The position numbers were made by a program, and so were the translations under genes. This document shows, one piece after another, positions 4,007 through 44,103 of a stretch of 64,000 bases of DNA. Under the pieces are notes generated by a model. It made no database searches. It saw only the letters and a program-made list of their open reading frames with translations, and was not told the DNA's origin. The stretch is taken from positions 4,092,001-4,156,000 of the forward strand of contig BJKQ01000002.1 in the NCBI GenBank assembly GCA_006538405.1, written 5' to 3'. Every line of letters begins with the position of its first letter. Within the stretch, counting starts at the first letter, position 1. This DNA comes from Hansfordia pulvinata. Lineage: Eukaryota > Ascomycota > Sordariomycetes > Xylariales.

Positions 4007-7000
4007 CTGGTGCGTACCGCTAGAGCAATACAAGATTACAAGAAGAACCGCGGTTACCATGTGCTCACGGGGCAGTAGCTCGTGCATGCGAGGACCAGTG
4101 ACGCCGAATCGGCTTTCCCCGTGTGCCATTCCCACTGTCGCCAACTCGCGCCTTTCGTCATCCCGCCGGCGCGCTCACTGACCCCGATAGACTAGAGACG
4201 CCCTGAATTCGTCGCTGCAGCTGGGCAACTCTGGATCAGCGGCAGAGACCCCGGCTAGTTCCTATTCTATCTGCCTGTGGACGACTGCACGAGGGAATGC
4301 ACGCGGCAGGAAGACACGGGGTGGCGGCTCGACCCCGAGAGCCTACCACCTCATGCCAAGCATGGCGACGGCCAAGCTGACTGCTCCCCCTGAGGAGTCA
4401 GCGAGCTGGGCCTTGCTCTCCATCCAATACTCCCGCCCACTTGCCCCGAGGCAACGCAGTGTCGCATGGACACGGGCCCGCGCGCACACGACGCAGCCTG
4501 TTGAAACGCCCAGCAGCGCATCGTGTCCTGCAGGTTGCCTTGGGTGGGCTGGGGCTGTTGGAGACGCCGCTCTGCGCGGTCGCCGCGGGGCCTCTTTTCC
4601 GGACTATGAAGAAGAGGGGGTCCAGCAAGCTGATGAACGGATACCCGCGTCCCCGGCCGTACTCGAACTCGAGGGATCGGGAATTTCTTGAGCTAGCTGG
4701 CTGGTGTGCGCACGACCCCAAAACTACGTACGGCACTCGTCGTCCCATCGACAGGGGAACGCTGTCGACGCACGTTGCGACAGGGTCCTGGGGTTCTGCA
4801 GGGAGGTCTGCGCTTCTGGAAGCTTTCTTTCTGTGTGCTCAGGACCATGCGAATGCTCTTCGTGGCGCCCATCCTCGGCCGCCCACTCCGGCTTGCACCA
4901 ATCGTGGACGATTGGCCAACGACACTTCTAGCGCTCTGCATGGAAGCCCGTGCCTTACATGTACGAGACTGCTTGCTGGCGCAGTTGTCGGCTCAGCCAC
5001 TATGAGTATGTTGACAGACTCCTCCTGTTGCTGGTCGACGCTGCAGATGACGCTGCATGAGCCATGGGCACTCTCCTGGACAGCGCGGGCTAGGGGTCAT
5101 AACCCACCCACTGGCTCTTCATCTCTCCGAAATACCCACAGCAATATATACTGCATGGCGCCGGCTTCAACTTGTCAAGTTCCTGGCGTGACCGCTTTCG
5201 CCTGGTCGTGGTGCCTTGCCGCTTTCCCCTTTTGATTGCATCAAAGGCCGCCGTCATCAGTCGACGCACTCAGTCGATGTCCTGTGCGCAATCGCTCCCG
5301 GGTGAGAGCATGGCTTCTTCCGTGGCCGCGCGAAGCCCCTTGTCACCGGTAAGCGTTCTGGTGTTCTCGGCGTGGCCCCACTGTGCTCTGGCTTCGGCCT
5401 GCTCCCCCGATGGTTTGGGTACGCCACACCTATAGAGTGTTGATTTGGTTATGTCGTCTGGTCCGTGGGTCCATCTGCTGGGGTGGCAGGATGGCGTGGT
5501 GTGATGCCGTTCTCCAGGTTATCGCAGCATCTTCCTGACCTGGCATATTTCGCGACACACAATGCTTTCTGTATCATAATGGTTCGATTTGATCGGGAGG
5601 GATCGAGGATTTATATATGATAAATCGCTGCTTCAGGTTCCCGGGCTGAGCTGTTGTTAAGAGGTGCGTGCCAGATGATCTGTTGAGGTGACCTGTCCTA
5701 CGCAGCGTCGGTGGCATTTCGGTATCCAGCTTCTGAACAGCTGGTTTCAGCACTGCATAAGCTCATGATGCCGCATTAGGGCTGCTCGGGCTCACTGGAA
5801 CACTCACTGTATGTACAGATGCAGTTCAGGGAAGATATGCAGTGAACAGGATGAAGATGGGTGACCTTGTCCATGTGATCATTTCACTGGCGCTGCTGAG
5901 GTGACGGCGAGACCTTCCGCTAGGCTTCGGGGTGTCCTTGCTATCACGGTTAACGCTCGTATGTCGTGTGGTTATCCCTGTGAGATCACATCGCACTTTG
6001 ACTCTTCGGGGTTGGGGACGGCAATCAGGCACAAGGCGGCCCCGCGGGTGCCTCTCTTCTGATCCCGCCATCGTATCGAGGTGATAACGGAGCGACCTGT
6101 AGAGACCGACCGGGGGGGGGAGGGGGCGCATATTGTGTGATTTGTACTATATGCAGGCCGGCGCGCGTTGGCGAAGAGAAAAGACCCCGTGCGCAAGGAC
6201 GTTTCTGCCGGTCTACATGGATGATGCTGTCGTCGATCCTCAGGCGGACGGCGTGGCAGACGTGCTTTGACCATGTTCCCCCGTAGATGTGAGAGTAGAA
6301 TGGCCAGAGGGGTAAGCGCAAAGGATTTTGTCAAGGTGAGAGTGCGTTTAGTGCGGACGTGGAGACAGCGGCAACAGAGGCATGACAAGGATCTTGGAAG
6401 CGGCAAGTCTCCCCACCTCTCTCTCTCTCTCTCTGTGCTGAAATGAGATGTACGCAGAAAAAGCACGGGCGATTCACCGAGGAGGACGATCCTGCCAGCA
6501 TCTTGTCGGAGATCTGGGAGGAGCTCGATTTATGAGGGGGATTTGGAGAGAAATCGATCTCGGACAGACGGTGAAAGCGAGAGAGTCAGGAGGATGGCGA
6601 TGTCTCGGATGCGTGTAGAAGGCGACGAGGGACACATGGCGAGATTTGGGAGGGAGACGGGACCCGTGCCGGCTCGGGGTTTTGCGATGGGTGTTGCCTG
6701 TCTTGCGCGCGCGGGCTTTGACGGAGTGGATGCTTGATCCGCGTGGACAGAGCGCGGCGGTGCGATGCACAGGTGCATGTATCTCAGGGGGTGAATGTGA
6801 AGGTGGACGACGGATTGATGGCGTCGTCCTCAGTACGGGCGACGGCCTGGCGCGGTGGTGGTGGTGGTGGTCTGAACGACTGGAGTGGACGGGAATGAGC
6901 TACGAGTACTCGTACGGCTGCTACCTGCGAAAGGTGGTACGTACTCATAAGCACAAACGGAATTGCCGAGCTGGGAAGGCGCAAGAGCCTTGATTGGCTC

Positions 7001-26536: not shown

Positions 26537-28159
26537 CTAGTCTTCATCCACCATGCCAAGGGCCGCCTTCTTGATGGCAATCTCCTTCTTGTAGCTGTCG
26601 ATGCTCTTCTTCAGGCGACTCTTCAAGATGGGGTTGCTTTGCGCGTTGTAATTCGACTCGGCTTCTTGAAGCTGGTGTTCGTAGTTGCGCAGGTCCGACA
26701 ACTTTTCTTTGCGCTCCTTGTCTGCGGTCTTGTGGTCCTCGTCGTCGTCATCATCGTCATCGTCGTCCTCGTCTTCTTCAGACACCTCGCTGTCTTCCTC
26801 TTCAGAAGCCGGGCCTTCCGCGTCTGCCACAGCAGGCGTCGTAGGATCAACGGTGACAGGGGTCGTGGCTTCAAGCTGCGTAACAGGCGTGGCGGCCGCG
26901 GTCTCGGTGGTGCCGAGTTCGGCGTGCAGCTCGGCCAACAAGTCATCCTCAACTTCAGCACCATCCATGTCCGTCTCGTCGTCACCCGCACGGGGGAAGT
27001 AACCGTCAGCTTCTTCTTCGCCTTCGGCATCTTCCTCCTCATCGTAACCGGCATCGGCATCGGCATCGGCGTCGGCGTCGGCGTCGGCATCAGCATCGCC
27101 CTCCTCTACCCAGTCAACGGTCGTCTCGAGAGCCTTGGCGTCGTCTTCCAGTAGTTTCTTAAGCGTGGCGGCCTTGGTCTTCCACTGTTTCTCGGTCATG
27201 TTCTTGCGGAATCGGCGGTTCTCGGCATCGTGCATGGGCGGGGTGAGGCCATGAGGCCACTTGAAGTCATTCTTGACAGCCATGGCGGGCAGGGGAATGG
27301 TTCTGGCCTCGGCGTCGTTGCGCACCTCGGCGAAGCAGAGGAGCATTTCGACGAGGTCCGAATTCTTCATCATGGTTTTGCGATCCCATGTCTTCATGGT
27401 TTCCGTGATTGTCGGCAGGGTGACGAGAACAGCAGCATAGAGCTTGTTGTTGACGCCCACGACGGCGCGATGCTCTTTAGCGTCAATGAAGGTGACGGAG
27501 AAATCAGCACCGCCGTTTGCCTTGTGCAGGCCAATGGTGCCGTCGGCAATAGCCTTGCGGAGATACTCGGTAGATGGACCCGGGAGGGTGCGCAGGATGA
27601 AATGCTGCTCGCGGACGGGGTCTTCCTCCTTGTCACTCGCCTCGGAATCGTAGGCATCGCCAGGTGTGTGTTCGAGAACGTCGGGCTTGGGCTTCAACCG
27701 GATCGAGTTGACGCCGGCTCCACCTGGGAGGACGGTGACGGGACTGTTCTTGTTAGAGGGCTTGATTTTGATGAGTTTGGCTGGGCGGCCGGAGGCGGAG
27801 TCGGATCTGGAATGAGAAGGGTTTCGGGAGGCAGCCATGGGGCGATCCTCGTCGTCGCTATCGTGAGGGCGCTTCTGGGAGGCGGCCAGCTTGGCGGAGG
27901 GCTTGGTGGCCCTGCCGGCCTTGGTCTTGATGATGGGCGAGGCCTGTGAGGAGGGGGTGGTAGGAGTGCTGACGACACGGAACTTCTGCTTCTTCTTCTC
28001 ATCGGAGGGGGTGGGGCCGCCACCGCCGCCGATGGAGGCCTTGCGACTGGTGTTGAGCTTGAGGATCGGCCTTGGGGTATTTGCAGTGGTTGCCGGCGGG
28101 GGTGGCATTTCGCGGTCGATGTCGAGCTTCAGGGAGGGCTTCTGATCGGCGGGAGCCAT
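26537..28159 (-). CDS. TAF7: TFIID subunit TAF7 (TAFII55 domain)
   Basis: Single exon on the minus strand, 540 aa. The TAFII55 domain lies at about residues 183-290: EQHFILRTLP, a central HRAVVGVNNKLYAAVLVTLP, then TITETMKTWDRKTMMKNSDL and MLLCFAEV. These are the family's hallmark segments. The product is a TFIID subunit that binds TAF1 and checks its acetyltransferase activity during promoter binding. The N-terminal 180 residues are Pro/Ser/Lys-rich. After the domain come an Asp-Ala dipeptide run (about 354-372, coded by a GAT/GCC repeat) and long acidic stretches. The C-terminus is a basic helix ending KKAALGMVDED, which looks like a natural end. The ATG at 28159 follows an open stretch without an earlier ATG. 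The gene is divergent to the TAF3-like gene 3.2 kb away. Confidence 0.92.
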   Translation of the reverse strand: MAPADQKPSLKLDIDREMPPPPATTANTPRPILKLNTSRKASIGGGGGPTPSDEKKKQKFRVVSTPTTPSSQASPIIKTKAGRATKPSAKLAASQKRPHDSDDEDRPMAASRNPSHSRSDSASGRPAKLIKIKPSNKNSPVTVLPGGAGVNSIRLKPKPDVLEHTPGDAYDSEASDKEEDPVREQHFILRTLPGPSTEYLRKAIADGTIGLHKANGGADFSVTFIDAKEHRAVVGVNNKLYAAVLVTLPTITETMKTWDRKTMMKNSDLVEMLLCFAEVRNDAEARTIPLPAMAVKNDFKWPHGLTPPMHDAENRRFRKNMTEKQWKTKAATLKKLLEDDAKALETTVDWVEEGDADADADADADADADAGYDEEEDAEGEEEADGYFPRAGDDETDMDGAEVEDDLLAELHAELGTTETAAATPVTQLEATTPVTVDPTTPAVADAEGPASEEEDSEVSEEDEDDDDDDDDDEDHKTADKERKEKLSDLRNYEHQLQEAESNYNAQSNPILKSRLKKSIDSYKKEIAIKKAALGMVDED

Positions 28160-28880
28160 GGCTGGTGCAGGCGACGCCAAATAGGTTGGGATGAGGTGAG
28201 GTGATCGATGGTACAGTACAGGGCGACAGGTGATGGCTCAGTAACGGGAGGCGAGACGAGCAGGGTCTGTTCATCGAGAAGCTCAGTCGAGCAAGACCGC
28301 GTCGCGCCGCGCTGGACTCTGGAGGGTGGTTTCCTATCCGGGCGCGAAGATCATGGTGAGGATGATGCTGAATGGACTGTAGGGCGCGAATGGACGAGGG
28401 TGAGCCGAGTGGTGTGTTTGATTGCACCCAGCGTGAGACGGGCACCGGGCGACAGCAAGGTCGAATCAAGCCACAAGAGTTGCGATCATCGGTCGGCGAT
28501 GGATACAACGGGGCCAGGGCCGGGAGTTGGTGCGGGATGGGATGTTAAACGCTGACTGAATACGGCACATTGGATGGGCTCGGCGCAGAGGCGTCATGTA
28601 CGTACCTTCCGCCTTACCTCGCGCGCAACACGCGTCCACCTGCAGTGAGGTCAGACTTCAACTCATTAGGAGTGGAGGCTTGGTACAGAGGTATCTTCCT
28701 AGCTCAGAAATGCTTGCCCCACTGAAGCCAGGGCGGGTCACAGCAGGGCTGGATGATGGGTACGAGTACTTGGGTACATCTGGATCTCTCAGAGAATATA
28801 TGCATCTATCCGTTAGCTCGTCCAAGTCCATCGTGCACCTTGGACATGTACCTTGAACTCTCACTTACACGACTTACACG
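28160..28880. other. TAF7 upstream region
   Basis: Ordinary CpG-containing DNA with TAF7 promoter sequence next to the gene. A TACGAGTACT half-palindrome lies near 28760. CpG-bearing sequence stops abruptly after the CG at 28879-28880, where the CpG-null island begins. No gene is seen. Confidence 0.6.
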
Positions 28881-29211
28881 GCCTACACCAACCATCTAAG
28901 GGCACAGGCTCACATGGTGATTCCTTAGCAAGCATCCTGCCTGGCACATACACACTCTTCTTGAAGAAAGATGTCACTGGCTGGACCTAGTCAAGTGGTG
29001 CTAAGCAAGGCATGCATCTCATTGTTCCAATTAATCTATCTTTGGAAGCATCTGATTCTCATCATCAATCATTCATCTCATAATACAAGCAAAAGGGTGC
29101 TGGGCCTGCTTTCAATCCATCTCTTCATCCATCTGTGCCTATCTCTGGTGCTTTCCAGAAGACACTTTGCTGAAAAACATGCTCTGGGATGTGTTGGGTT
29201 GACCTGTGCCA

Positions 29212-30204
29212 TCACTGGGGAGCCTGGTACTGAGTCTGCTGAAGGAAAGCCTGGAGGCCTTCATCATCCTCCACAAAGAGGCTGTCATCTTGAACCATCT
29301 GCACTGGGGCAGTCTGAATCATCATCCTAGCAGTGTCCTCCAGGCTCATCCCTTGTTGGGCTACAGGGAATCGAAGCTGAAAAGTAGCCTCTTCATAAGG
29401 GTACTCTCCCTGGTCAAGCTCAGGATAGTCAGAGTGCACTTGGGGCTGCAAATTGAAATCTTGATATTGCCAAGCTTGAGCATGGTCCTCATGGCCAGTT
29501 TGGTAGTTGAACTGACCCATACCCATGATGGGTTGCATGCCAGCCTGGGTCCTCTGAGCTTGCTGCAGCTCCATGTCCAGCTGAGCCTGCTGGCTTGGGT
29601 AGAGCTGCTGGTTGGGCTGGTGGGAAGGTTGCTGATTGTCTGTGCCTGTCTGAGGGTGCTCATGCAGCTGAAGCAGCTGGCTTGGCTGCTTGGAGGCCTG
29701 GGACTTGGCTGCTTGAGCCTTCTGGCTCTTCTGGCCTGGCTGACTCTTCTTCTTCTTCTTCAATGATTTGTGGCTGCTACTGTGATGAATAAACCCCCAG
29801 TCAGCCTGGAAACCTTGGGATATGGAAGATGATGAAGCACTGCTTGGACTGAGTACTTACTTGATGATGCCTTTGCCAGTTCTGGTATGATCAATGATGT
29901 GGCGGGATTTTCCTCTGTAGTTATGGACTCTTCTCTCATGTCTGTCCACCTGCTCCTTGGAGTCAAATCTCTTGCCACAGTCCTTGCAGAACCAGTCCCC
30001 AAGATCAGTGCTCATTGCCTGAGCATAAGCACTCTCAGACTTGTGCTTTTTTGACCTGTGGGAGCCAATGTCATGTTTGGAATTTTTTGTGATGGCACCA
30101 CAGATGGTGCCATCCTTGTCAGTGATCTGACATGTGACAAAAGCAGGCTCAGCTGGCTCAGGAGTATTCTCCTTGCTGTTGGTGTTGGCTGCTTTGGGAG
30201 GCAT
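29212..30204 (-). CDS. C2H2 zinc-finger protein of the CpG-null island
   Basis: Two exons on the minus strand, 30204-29861 and 29779-29212, giving 303 aa. The intron (29780-29860) has GTAAGT and CACAG ends and removes an in-frame TAA. The N-terminal third has a non-canonical Cys/His cluster (CQITDKDGTIC...HDIGSHRSKKH) and then a standard C2H2 finger with C73, C76, H89 and H94, followed by a basic stretch. After the splice come a Lys/Ser/Gln-rich linker and a Gln/Pro-rich region with an acidic, hydrophobic end. This is the layout of a sequence-specific transcription factor with an activation domain. I recognise no named family. Codon use differs sharply from its neighbours: almost every Arg is AGA/AGG, and the only two CpG in the coding region are in Arg codons (RHII and QLRF). 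No stops or frameshifts are present. Confidence 0.82.
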
Positions 30205-30310
30205 TGTCAGGAGGCTTGAGTGGGTGATGGGCTGTGAGAAAGTGTGTGTGGTTGTGAGGGAGAGTGTACTTTGGGGAGTACTTGGGTGATGAAGAGGGTG
30301 ATGTTTGTAT

Positions 30311-30334
30311 CCGGAGTATGCAACTGCCGGAGAG
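30311..30334 (-). promoter_or_regulatory. Paired CCGGAG motif near the transcription start
   Basis: Two copies of CCGGAG (plus-strand reading, around 30311 and 30327) lie 20-45 bp downstream of the TATA box of the zinc-finger gene. They hold two of only seven CpG left in the island. Retention at a repeated motif suggests, but does not prove, a constrained binding site. Confidence 0.4.
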
Positions 30335-30350
30335 TGTGATGGGGGCCCTG

Positions 30351-30358
30351 CATTTTAT
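30351..30358 (-). promoter_or_regulatory. TATA box of the island zinc-finger gene
   Basis: The minus strand reads CTATAAAATG here, about 150 bp upstream of the ATG at 30204. Spacing suits a leader of about 110-120 nt. Confidence 0.6.
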
Positions 30359-30910
30359 AGGGAAAAAGGATGGGGCTGCCTGAACAGAATCAGCCAGCCT
30401 GGGTGCCTTGCTCACTGGGCTCACTGACTGTAGCACTGCACATGACTGCTGCCCCAGATGACCAATCAGAAGTGGAACTGGTGGTTTGGCTGTTTGCATG
30501 TCTCCCTGGGTAACCAACTTGCTGGGTGTGCATTGAATGTGAATAGGGACATATGTGAGGGAGCACAATGCAACATGGCACGGGCTTGGCTTGGTGCCTG
30601 CCTTGATGGGTTTGTGTCACTGGGGTTACCTTAGGTCACCTTCACTGGAGCTGTCAGCCTGCAGGCTTTGCCTGGCCCAGCTGGCTCAGCCACTGTAAGG
30701 GAGCCCTCAGGTGCCTCCACCAGGTGAGGAGTGACAGCCCAGTGGAACATTGGACAGAAGCTGTAGCAGGCACTCACATACATCCATTCACAGCACTCAA
30801 TTTAGAGAGCCCCCAAAGCACTGCAGGTGCAGGTGACAGCTGAGCCCGGCACCCTCAGGGCCACCTCCACTACAGCACTGGGCTCCCAGCTGGAGCAGAG
30901 CCCTCACTCC

Positions 30911-30950
30911 CAGTGAGCTCCACTGTCACACAGTGAGCTCCACTGTCACA
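30911..30950. repeat. 20-bp tandem repeat inside the CpG-null island
   Basis: Two perfect adjacent copies of CAGTGAGCTCCACTGTCACA at 30911-30930 and 30931-30950. The unit itself is partly palindromic (CAGTG...CACTG). Confidence 0.95.
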
Positions 30951-31046
30951 GCACCACCAAGGGAGCTTGCAGCCCACCACCTATCCACCACCCACGCCCA
31001 CCACCCACACTGGAGTCATAGCTTGTAGGTAGGTACCCTCCTCCAG

Positions 31047-31309
31047 CGCTCTTGATCCCACCTACAACGACACCTTCACCTCGGGTTTGCGGCCTCGAAC
31101 GCCATCACCACCAGCACCACCGAAAAAAAGACGCCTTCACGCCCCTTCGTGCGCCGCATCTGCTCGCCTCGACTTGCGATCTCCTATTCCCCCCCCCCCC
31201 CCCCCTGTCTCGACTCCTGCCGACGGGGAGGCAGGCTGCTGCCGCTGCACCTGTCGCCCCTCCTGCGCGCCCGCCGCCGCCGCCCTTGTCCCGCGGTTTC
31301 GTTCGGTCG

Positions 31310-31353
<44 letters not shown>

Positions 31354-31399
31354 ACAGCAGCACACCCTCGCAAAGCCTCTTTCTCATACCGCGCCCCCC
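31047..31399 (+). promoter_or_regulatory. Pyrimidine-rich promoter/leader of the TAF3-like gene
   Basis: The stretch contains a run of about 17 C (31189-31205) and a CT microsatellite (about 31315-31352), followed by the ATG at 31400. Pyrimidine tracts just upstream of the start are common in core promoters of filamentous fungi. The homopolymer lengths may be unreliable. Confidence 0.5.
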
Positions 31400-32324
31400 A
31401 TGGCCTCGGCCTACGCCGCCTCGTCGGCCCACCGCGCGCACACGGCCTCGGAGCTGCACCTCGCCCTGCTGCGCCCGGCCGTCCTGCAGATCCTGCGCGC
31501 CCAGGGCTACTACTCGAGCACCTCGGCCACCGTCGACGCCCTGACCGAGATGACCGGCCACTTCATCTCGGCCATCGCCCGCCAGACCGCCCTCCACGCC
31601 TCCCAGAACAGCCCCCTCACCGGCAGCCCCTCCCTCGTCGACGTCCGCATGGCCCTCGAGGACTGCGGCGCCCTGTGGCCCGACCGCGACCTCGCCGTGC
31701 CCCTGCCCTCCCGCCCCCCGACGCCGACCCCGCCGCCGACCCCGCCGACGACGTCCGCGGCGTCGACGAGTTCGTCCGCTGGGCCAAGGGCCCCAAGAAC
31801 CTGCGCATCCGCCGCGTCGCCGGCATCCAGGCCCCCGCCATCGGCGACGACGGCGTCGAGCAGGAGCGCGAGACTGACTACCTGAGCTGTGAGTAGCCTC
31901 CTCCTTCCTCTTTCCGCGCACACGTTGTCACCCCCTCCCATGTCTCAAACGCACAACACAATGTGATTACCTCCGATCCCGCAAAACCAAAAGGAAGAAA
32001 GAGAAGAAAGGCTGATCGATCTCCCCTTCTCCTCCCCTCTTTCTAGCTCTCAAGAAGCGGCATAACAAGGGCGACCAGGAGGACTCCAAGTACGCCGGCA
32101 CCATCCTGGGCTGCAGCATCGACCACGGCGAGGTCACGGTCGAGGGCGGCAAGGCCGACACGCTGCAGGCCTGGGCCCGCATGATGCGCGACGCCTCGGT
32201 CAGGTCCCCCGACGAGCTGCGCCGCGGCGACGACGACGGCGACGACCGCCCGCCCAGCTCCGGCCTCAGCTCCCTCAACGACGCCGACGTCGGGGACATG
32301 GACATGATGGACGTCGCGACGTAG
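31400..32324 (+). CDS. TAF3-like TFIID subunit (histone-fold), with apparent frameshift
   Basis: Two exons, 31400-31888 and 32047-32324. The first 85 residues form a Bromo_TP-type histone fold: LHLALLRPAVLQILRAQGYY, then VDALTEMTGHFISAIARQTA and VDVRMALEDCGAL. A later block, GVDEFVRWAKGPKNLRIRRVA, is what I expect in fungal TAF3, and the acidic C-terminus ends DMDMMDVAT. It would pair with TAF10 in TFIID. TAF8 or another Bromo_TP protein is the main alternative. In the frame of the ATG, translation leaves the conserved frame at a C6 run (31714-31719); one more C would join the histone fold to the conserved block (255 aa in total). The splice joins ..DYLS to SLKKRHNKG in the restored frame. 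Confidence 0.75.
31714..31719 (+). other. Apparent -1 frameshift in C6 run of the TAF3-like gene
   Basis: The codons CGC CCC CCG ACG leave the conserved frame, which continues GAC GCC GAC one base back. The geometry, C CCC CCG, is the same as at the mL54 site. One missing C in a run of seven explains it. Confidence 0.8.

Positions 32325-43463: not shown

Positions 43464-43521
<58 letters not shown>
43464..43521. repeat. (CA)n microsatellite, about 29 units
   Basis: An uninterrupted CA dinucleotide run. A shorter CA run followed by GA repeats lies nearby at about 43611-43646. Confidence 0.95.
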
Positions 43522-43523
<2 letters not shown>

Positions 43524-43611
43524 AAGCTTCTTGCTTGATCTGGGCTGTCTTGCATTCGCAGACTCAGTGACGGAGTCAGGGGGGGTTTGCAAGAGGGGCG
43601 GGGGGTGTGAA

Positions 43612-43646
<35 letters not shown>

Positions 43647-44103
43647 AGCCCGCATGATAAGCTTTCGTCTTCTTCCTTTCCTTCCACCCGTGACCACGTT
43701 CCATTACCAGCTGCCCGGCGCAACCACCTCCAGCTGCTTTTTTGGGGGGCGATCGAGGAGATACTCCAGAGTTCGCCTTTCAGGAAGACGAAGAGCTCAA
43801 GAGGAGGGGCGCGGCGCTGTCAGTCATGGATCCCAAGGCAGGGCAGTCAGGGCCTTGGGTCCAGCTTCCCGAATGTGGAAGCTCGTTATCAGGCCTTCGC
43901 TGCCAGGTGCCATCCCGCATGCCCGAGTCCAGTCGAGCTTCCGCTTCAGGAAGTAAATAAGGTACGAGCAGGTCGTGATCCAGGCTGCCACCTGCTGCCC
44001 GTTCCTTGGTCTCGGATGTCGTTGTCCGCGCGTGCAGTCTTGCAGAAGGCGGTCCGGCGAGGCACTGGAGAGCAGTGGTACGTCCAAGCAGGGCTTACGG
44101 AGT

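Follow-up and report, generated by a model that had tools for sequence, protein, structure and literature searches.

The locus and its genes

The window analysed here is a 64-kb stretch (C2:4092001-4156000) of a 4.4-Mb contig, in a 46.8-Mb genome assembled into 63 contigs. Gene content and RIP suggest a filamentous ascomycete; a search of the assembly for 5.8S gave no match. It contains a gene of 303 codons, on the minus strand and with its open frame intact, which lies in a segment nearly devoid of CpG dinucleotides. The features of the segment and its two neighbouring genes are as follows.

28880..31047, no strand: CpG-null island, from log-odds segmentation; GC 0.525, TpG and CpA in excess
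28881..29211, minus strand: downstream flank, 331 bp; 0 CpG vs 17 +/- 3 in shuffles
29212..29779, minus strand: exon 2, glutamine-rich with an acidic C-terminal part; TGA stop at 29214-29212
29780..29860, minus strand: intron, 81 bp, GT..AG; 0 CpG vs 4.4 +/- 1.6 in shuffles
29861..30204, minus strand: exon 1, ATG at 30204; a classical C2H2 finger and a variant C-x9-C finger by eye
30205..31046, minus strand: upstream flank, 842 bp; 5 CpG vs 67 +/- 6 in shuffles
30353..30359, minus strand: TATAAAA, some 150 nt before the ATG
26537..28159, minus strand: TAF7-type neighbour (TAFII55_N, E 2.6e-44); normal CpG
31400..32324, plus strand: Bromo_TP neighbour, TAF3-like (E 2.3e-7), in CpG-normal DNA; from ATG to a stop, exons by eye

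The first-pass annotation of this DNA had described an undamaged two-exon gene with a TATA box (30359-30353) and normal splice sites, set between two TFIID genes. Both descriptions hold: the 303-residue frame and the GT..AG intron are in place, and the gene is bordered on one side by the TAFII55_N protein and on the other by a Bromo_TP protein whose sequence is consistent with TAF3. The frame of the latter seems to shift within 31714-31750, near a run of six cytosines (C6, 31714-31719), perhaps through a sequencing slip or a short intron.

The island gene probably encodes a DNA-binding regulator, a prediction based on a clear C2H2 finger, a further variant finger seen by eye, and a glutamine-rich acidic tail. 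The spacing C-x2-C-x12-H-x4-H is recognizable by eye, the profile PF00096 (zf-C2H2) scores 20.1 bits against a curated cut-off of 25.2, and solved zinc-finger chains match the finger region, the best being ZNF568 (E 1.8e-9, residues 64-94). Glutamine makes up 14.9% of the product vs 3.1% in six local frames, and arginine 3.6% vs 7.5%; this excess and deficit may partly reflect decay of CGR to CAR.

A segment nearly devoid of CpG

Between 28881 and 31046 (2166 bp) there are 7 CpG, an observed/expected ratio (o/e) of 0.047. Mononucleotide shuffles of the same segment contain 148.8 +/- 9.2 CpG, with a minimum of 117 (n=3000). The median o/e of 500-bp windows over the 64 kb is 0.92, and the adjoining DNA, about 2.9 kb on each side, stands at 0.95 and 1.01. 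Log-odds segmentation places the edges of the island at 28880 and 31047 with a score of 108.6, and reports one further CpG-free segment in the 64 kb, of 121 bp and score 8.3. Outside the island the lowest o/e, 0.59 at 43501-44000, is ordinary variation. The near absence of CpG had been the central claim of the first-pass annotation, and the counts confirm it. The same annotation had CpG returning abruptly on both sides; the left edge is less abrupt than that, as CpG is sparse already from 28633 to 28880.

The coding sequence contains 2 CpG vs 52 +/- 4.9 in simulated sequences that encode the identical protein under local codon usage; when codons ending in G or C are down-weighted to 0.3, the simulated mean is still 32 and the lowest value 18 (n=2000). 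Amino-acid composition and codon bias are thereby ruled out as the cause of the loss. Contamination and misassembly are rejected as well, since the island is embedded in a contig of 4.4 Mb and islands related to it occur in two other large contigs. So is a transposon insertion: no repeat of at least 20 nt joins the two island edges within 28000-32000, and no second copy of the 842-bp upstream or the 331-bp downstream flank was found in the genome. Each edge region alone contains short local repeats only, and the test leaves room for short terminal repeats. The island is real, well measured, and unusual; its mechanism is plausible but unproven.

CpG apparently replaced by TpG and CpA

We compared the island with 78 host background windows of equal length. 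It is short of 168 CpG and of 135 G/C bases, and has 152 TpG and CpA in excess; the summed frequency of CpG, TpG, and CpA per base is 0.208 vs 0.216 +/- 0.010 in the host, a difference within 1 sd. In the non-coding flanks, with the intron left out, 90 CpG are missing and 90 TpG and CpA are in excess. On the gene strand the flanks contain 122 TpG and 126 CpA, i.e., both strands are equally affected, and their G/C deficit is 61 bases (43 downstream and 19 upstream, rounded) against an expected 90. The coding part lacks 72 CpG and has 59 TpG and CpA in excess; here CpA outnumbers TpG on the gene strand (118 vs 64), partly because of many CAG codons. TpA is not raised (0.0249 vs 0.0268 in the background), and cytosines in other contexts show no sign of having been lost.

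Because of the near mass balance, the symmetry of the flanks, and the unraised TpA, the island looks like host DNA whose CpG, on both strands, became TpG or CpA. Restoring the missing CpG would bring its GC to about 0.60 vs 0.588 +/- 0.024 in the host. The balance is drawn from composition and not from aligned ancestors, such that a donor of the same composition with similar decay would look alike. Strand-symmetric loss confined to CpG is the record left by 5-methylcytosine at CpG.

Fragments of the same family on two other contigs

DNA and protein searches of the genome found relatives of the island gene in two places, on contigs C1 and C7, and none beyond them. These are fragments of the same gene family, previously unnoticed, and both lie in CpG-poor islands; all three family sites found (C1, C2, C7) are therefore in such DNA. 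Two exon-2-like pieces lie on C7 (locus L006), one of 610 bp and, immediately following, one of 123 bp. C1 (locus L007) has two exon-1-like pieces in head-to-head orientation, about 190 bp and 125 bp long. The depleted segments around them are listed below.

L006 3422-4380, on C7: CpG-poor segment, o/e 0.21
L006 4747-5514, on C7: CpG-poor segment, o/e 0.10
L006 6020-6126, on C7: CpG-free stretch of about 107 bp
L007 3402-5241, on C1: CpG-poor segment, o/e 0.19

The C1 segment lacks 125 CpG and has 111 TpG and CpA in excess; for the two C7 segments the figures are 56 and 41, and 63 and 47. The second C7 segment fits the homologous block at 4770-5502, with edges within 23 and 12 bp, and CpG o/e is 0.65 in the DNA immediately preceding it and 0.79 in the DNA that follows. 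It follows that either the block arrived already depleted or the targeting stops near the homology. A shared targeting motif was considered and rejected, since no 11-mer or 12-mer is common to the three islands; TATGA[AG]CC is present in the C1 and C7 islands and absent from the entire window.

The remainder of the C1 and C7 islands is single-copy in the genome except for two short matches on C13: DNA downstream of the C7 block resembles CpG-normal C13 DNA over 71 bp (80% match) and 34 bp (97% match). The 71-bp match falls in an HMG-box gene (Pfam HMG_box E 2.2e-15, L024). Around it, L006 5500-6280 is a mosaic of gene pieces resembling the C13 genes of L024 and L025, together with a tandem repeat of about 49 bp. 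On C1, a short tandem repeat, CATCACGACCTCCAACC, lies behind a TATA-like site at L007 4104-4250 and holds 10 of the 24 CpG of the C1 segment. Just beyond the C1 island, at L007 5551-6123, is a small gene with three C2H2-type fingers by eye, one of them C-x9-C; its Pfam finger match (E 0.00037) is under the cut-off, and it has no sequence match to the island gene.

Selection and probable continued loss as the copies diverged

In the exon-1 copies, 11 of 13 and 16 of 20 mismatches fall at third codon positions. This bias suggests that the copies were working genes for most of their divergence; judged by these patterns, the protein was selected. The C7 copy has one stop and frame slips, and its 56 changes are spread over the three codon positions as 12, 20, and 24.

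Between copies, transitions that create or destroy a CpG are about four times rarer than expected: 3 were counted at 181 sites, where the rate elsewhere (49 at 692 sites) predicts 12.8 (p = 0.0023). The test pools four of the six pairs (C2-C7a, C7a-C7b, C2-C1f, C1f-C1r); the two outside the pool, C2-C7b and C2-C1r, have 1 and 0 such changes with about 2 expected in each. One pair in six, C2-C7a, is significant on its own (0 vs 6.3 expected, p = 0.003). The pairs share branches and coding constrains the changes, such that the result is supportive rather than proof. Exchanges of TpG and CpA number one in C2-C1r, one in C1f-C1r, and zero in the other four pairs; their near absence implies that most of the CpG loss preceded the separation of the copies. 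CpG loss seems, from these comparisons, to have continued during the divergence.

RIP acts elsewhere in the genome

RIP is active in the history of this genome, and its products are the mirror image of the island. A genome search with the RVT_1 profile gave 49 matches, most with several TAA stops and some with up to 14. Among 30 reverse-transcriptase loci measured, 22 are RIP-altered, with GC 0.18-0.36, CpG o/e 1.7-2.9, CpA o/e 0.07-0.46, TpA o/e 1.13-1.30, and TpA/ApT 1.20-1.56; the remaining 8 have GC 0.52-0.61 and CpG o/e 0.76-0.98. In the island, CpA o/e is 1.63, TpA o/e 0.45, and TpA/ApT 0.48. Canonical RIP is thus rejected as its cause: CpA is not depleted, TpA is not raised, and the 303-codon frame is free of stops. 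The earlier reading that the island is not a product of RIP is borne out by these opposite signatures within one genome. None of the 30 transposon loci shows a CpG depletion like that of the island, the lowest o/e being 0.76.

Some retroelements are free of RIP: two copies identical over 3297 bp, on C3 and C26 (L031-L034), keep an open frame of 1286 aa. Contig C23 has four RVT_1 loci of near-normal composition.

Rarity of such islands

Segmentation of the window, of three arbitrary 10-kb stretches, and of 37 other loci (127 kb) revealed no island beyond those of the gene family, apart from two short CpG-free stretches just above 100 bp in length, one in the window and one in L006; many of the 37 loci are AT-rich transposons, in which the CpG test has low power. 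The arbitrary stretches have CpG o/e 0.94-0.96. We also sampled the genome with a pattern whose enrichment in the known islands is about 35-fold, an optimistic figure since the pattern was calibrated on them. It occurs at 112 places vs 96 for its reversed control. Among the 100 rows listed, 13 (12 places) had a CpG-free match, namely the window and 11 others, and all 11 others are CpG-normal (o/e 0.77-1.11). A genome-wide class of islands is rejected on this enriched sample, with the pattern barely above its control and 11 of 11 candidates normal. As a rough bound, further island DNA in the genome amounts to less than about 40 kb, and other, unrelated islands may exist. The first-pass statement that such a segment would be unusual in this genome stands for the small part sampled, which contains no comparable island outside the family. 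Among the matches listed in a search of titles and abstracts, mainly of open-access literature, none described an isolated CpG-null gene in an ascomycete.

Methylation and deamination as a proposed mechanism

The genome encodes three cytosine methyltransferase candidates. The first is near the solved chain 9baq (E 1.9e-193), which we take to be DIM-2; the second, of 754 aa, is presumably RID-like; the third is near 7r76 (E 6.6e-28, over part of the catalytic domain), a chain deposited as Rad8 that we assign to the DNMT5 group. The available text of PMC7862722 equates the Rad8 and DNMT5 groups, and there and in the portion of PMC13297926 drawn on here DNMT5 is described as a CpG-specific maintenance enzyme. 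In the partial sources available, DNMT5 adds little methylation in Verticillium dahliae under the conditions tested, and mutation linked to DIM-2 in Zymoseptoria tritici is at CA and not at CG.

We propose that the island is native DNA of unremarkable base composition, where a mutation process specific to CpG and acting on both strands would have changed nearly every CpG to TpG or CpA. This process would have affected only the DNA of a single small C2H2 gene family and have lasted into the divergence of the copies, while selection preserved the protein. Its likely cause would be symmetric CpG methylation held for a long time at the family loci, followed by deamination of 5-methylcytosine; the DNMT5-type maintenance enzyme would be the best candidate. 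We give this reading, a long-lasting, family-confined, CpG-specific mutation, most likely by methylation and deamination with the protein kept by selection, a probability of about 0.5. Long-term methylation and deamination under selection for the protein was one of two origins offered by the first-pass annotation, and it fits best with the mass balance, the rarity of CpG changes, the third-position bias, and the methyltransferase genes; methylation itself, the enzyme behind it, and whatever restricts it to the C2H2 family are inferred.

The densest fungal methylation is usually found in RIP-altered transposons. In this genome such transposons keep their CpG (o/e 1.7-2.9), such that no general decay of methylated CpG acts there. 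Two possibilities follow: methylation maintained at the locus itself, or a past homology-guided CpG process directed at the family. The latter is the strongest rival, though we consider it unlikely: a CpG-preferring variant of RIP or MIP would have struck an old repeated gene family, with the remaining copies too short and too diverged for canonical RIP and the flanks once homologous to copies since lost. The three family sites and the fit of the second C7 segment to its homologous block speak for it, as do the RID-like gene and, separately, the CpG-type repeat mutation reported in Tuber and Microbotryum (in the part of PMC4352252 available). Against it stand the 22 of 30 reverse-transcriptase loci with strong CpA-type RIP and CpG retained, which imply that the same defence would need two opposite specificities, and the flanks of 842 and 331 bp, single-copy now yet equally depleted.

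The other origin offered at first pass, horizontal acquisition from a genome with methylated, CpG-depleted DNA, is unsupported by the results and now looks less likely; we rate it somewhat below the homology-guided process. In its favour, the island edges are fairly sharp, the flanks have no second copy, and the genome has no relative outside the three places. However, the sum of CpG, TpG, and CpA and the restored GC both match the host, the 81-bp intron is of fungal size, CpG stayed rare as the copies diverged, and the family sites are spread over three contigs. No close relative appeared in viral or prokaryote contigs, which says little on eukaryote donors. An o/e of 0.047 is also below the roughly five-fold human depletion given in the available part of PMC13297926. 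Selection against CpG itself, e.g., to evade DNA methylation or a CpG-binding silencer, is improbable: arginine is encoded by AGR in 9 of 11 cases vs 27% in six local long frames and CpG was kept out during divergence, but the intron and both flanks are depleted too, the TpG/CpA balance is predicted by a mutation process and not required by selection, and the strongest suppression (0 vs 6.3 expected) is in the comparison of the gene with the broken C7 fragment, on which selection is not expected.

Comparison with known systems

Methylation with deamination, as proposed for the island, has partial parallels. Methylated vertebrate DNA is depleted of CpG genome-wide, with CpG turned into TpG and CpA on both strands. 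The island differs in being one locus family and in being more extreme (human figure from the part of PMC13297926 available). Canonical RIP of the Neurospora type (RID/DIM-2) shares with it a dense regional change of C to T, and such enzymes are encoded here; it depletes CpA, generates TpA and stop codons, and leaves CpG alone, whereas the island shows the reverse in an intact frame.

A C-to-T bias of the CpG type is reported for the repeats in Tuber melanosporum and Microbotryum (PMC4352252), and for Rhizoctonia solani AG8 a hypermutation biased to CpG (PMC4014442). In the available portions of these papers, the change of CpG to TpG or CpA is attributed or compared to methylation and deamination, and it is transposon- or genome-wide, unlike the island, which covers one gene family in a CpG-rich genome with CpA-type RIP. 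The transition itself is seen in the island as a near mass balance, read from composition; the repeat targeting of the basidiomycete and Tuber type is not seen, since the 30 transposon loci are undepleted and the island flanks are single-copy.

Methylation maintained by DNMT5 in Cryptococcus is CpG-specific and long-lived, and a DNMT5-like gene is present here. As described in the excerpted text of PMC13297926, that methylation covers transposon remnants and centromeres, whereas the putative methylation here would cover a gene in gene-rich DNA. The disiRNA loci of Neurospora resemble it in that methylation lies in gene-rich DNA around promoters; they differ in that most cytosines are methylated in methylated alleles, in an on/off manner triggered by convergent transcription, and the available part of the source describes no CpG loss and never uses the term CpG (PMC3764098).

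Implications

In fungi, cytosine methylation is usually associated with transposons, and the role of DNMT5 in ascomycetes that also have DIM-2 is described as unsettled in the partial sources consulted. We tentatively suggest, as a possibility we think less probable than the mutational history above, that this ascomycete has a heritable, locus-specific domain of CpG methylation over a gene family in gene-rich DNA, which would have erased about 95% of its CpG and would be separate from RIP and opposite to it in specificity. The island is also an unusual case in which a protein is kept while its DNA loses a whole dinucleotide. A gene family with CpG-only mutation, beside CpA-type RIP, would mark a second, separate methylation activity on genes.
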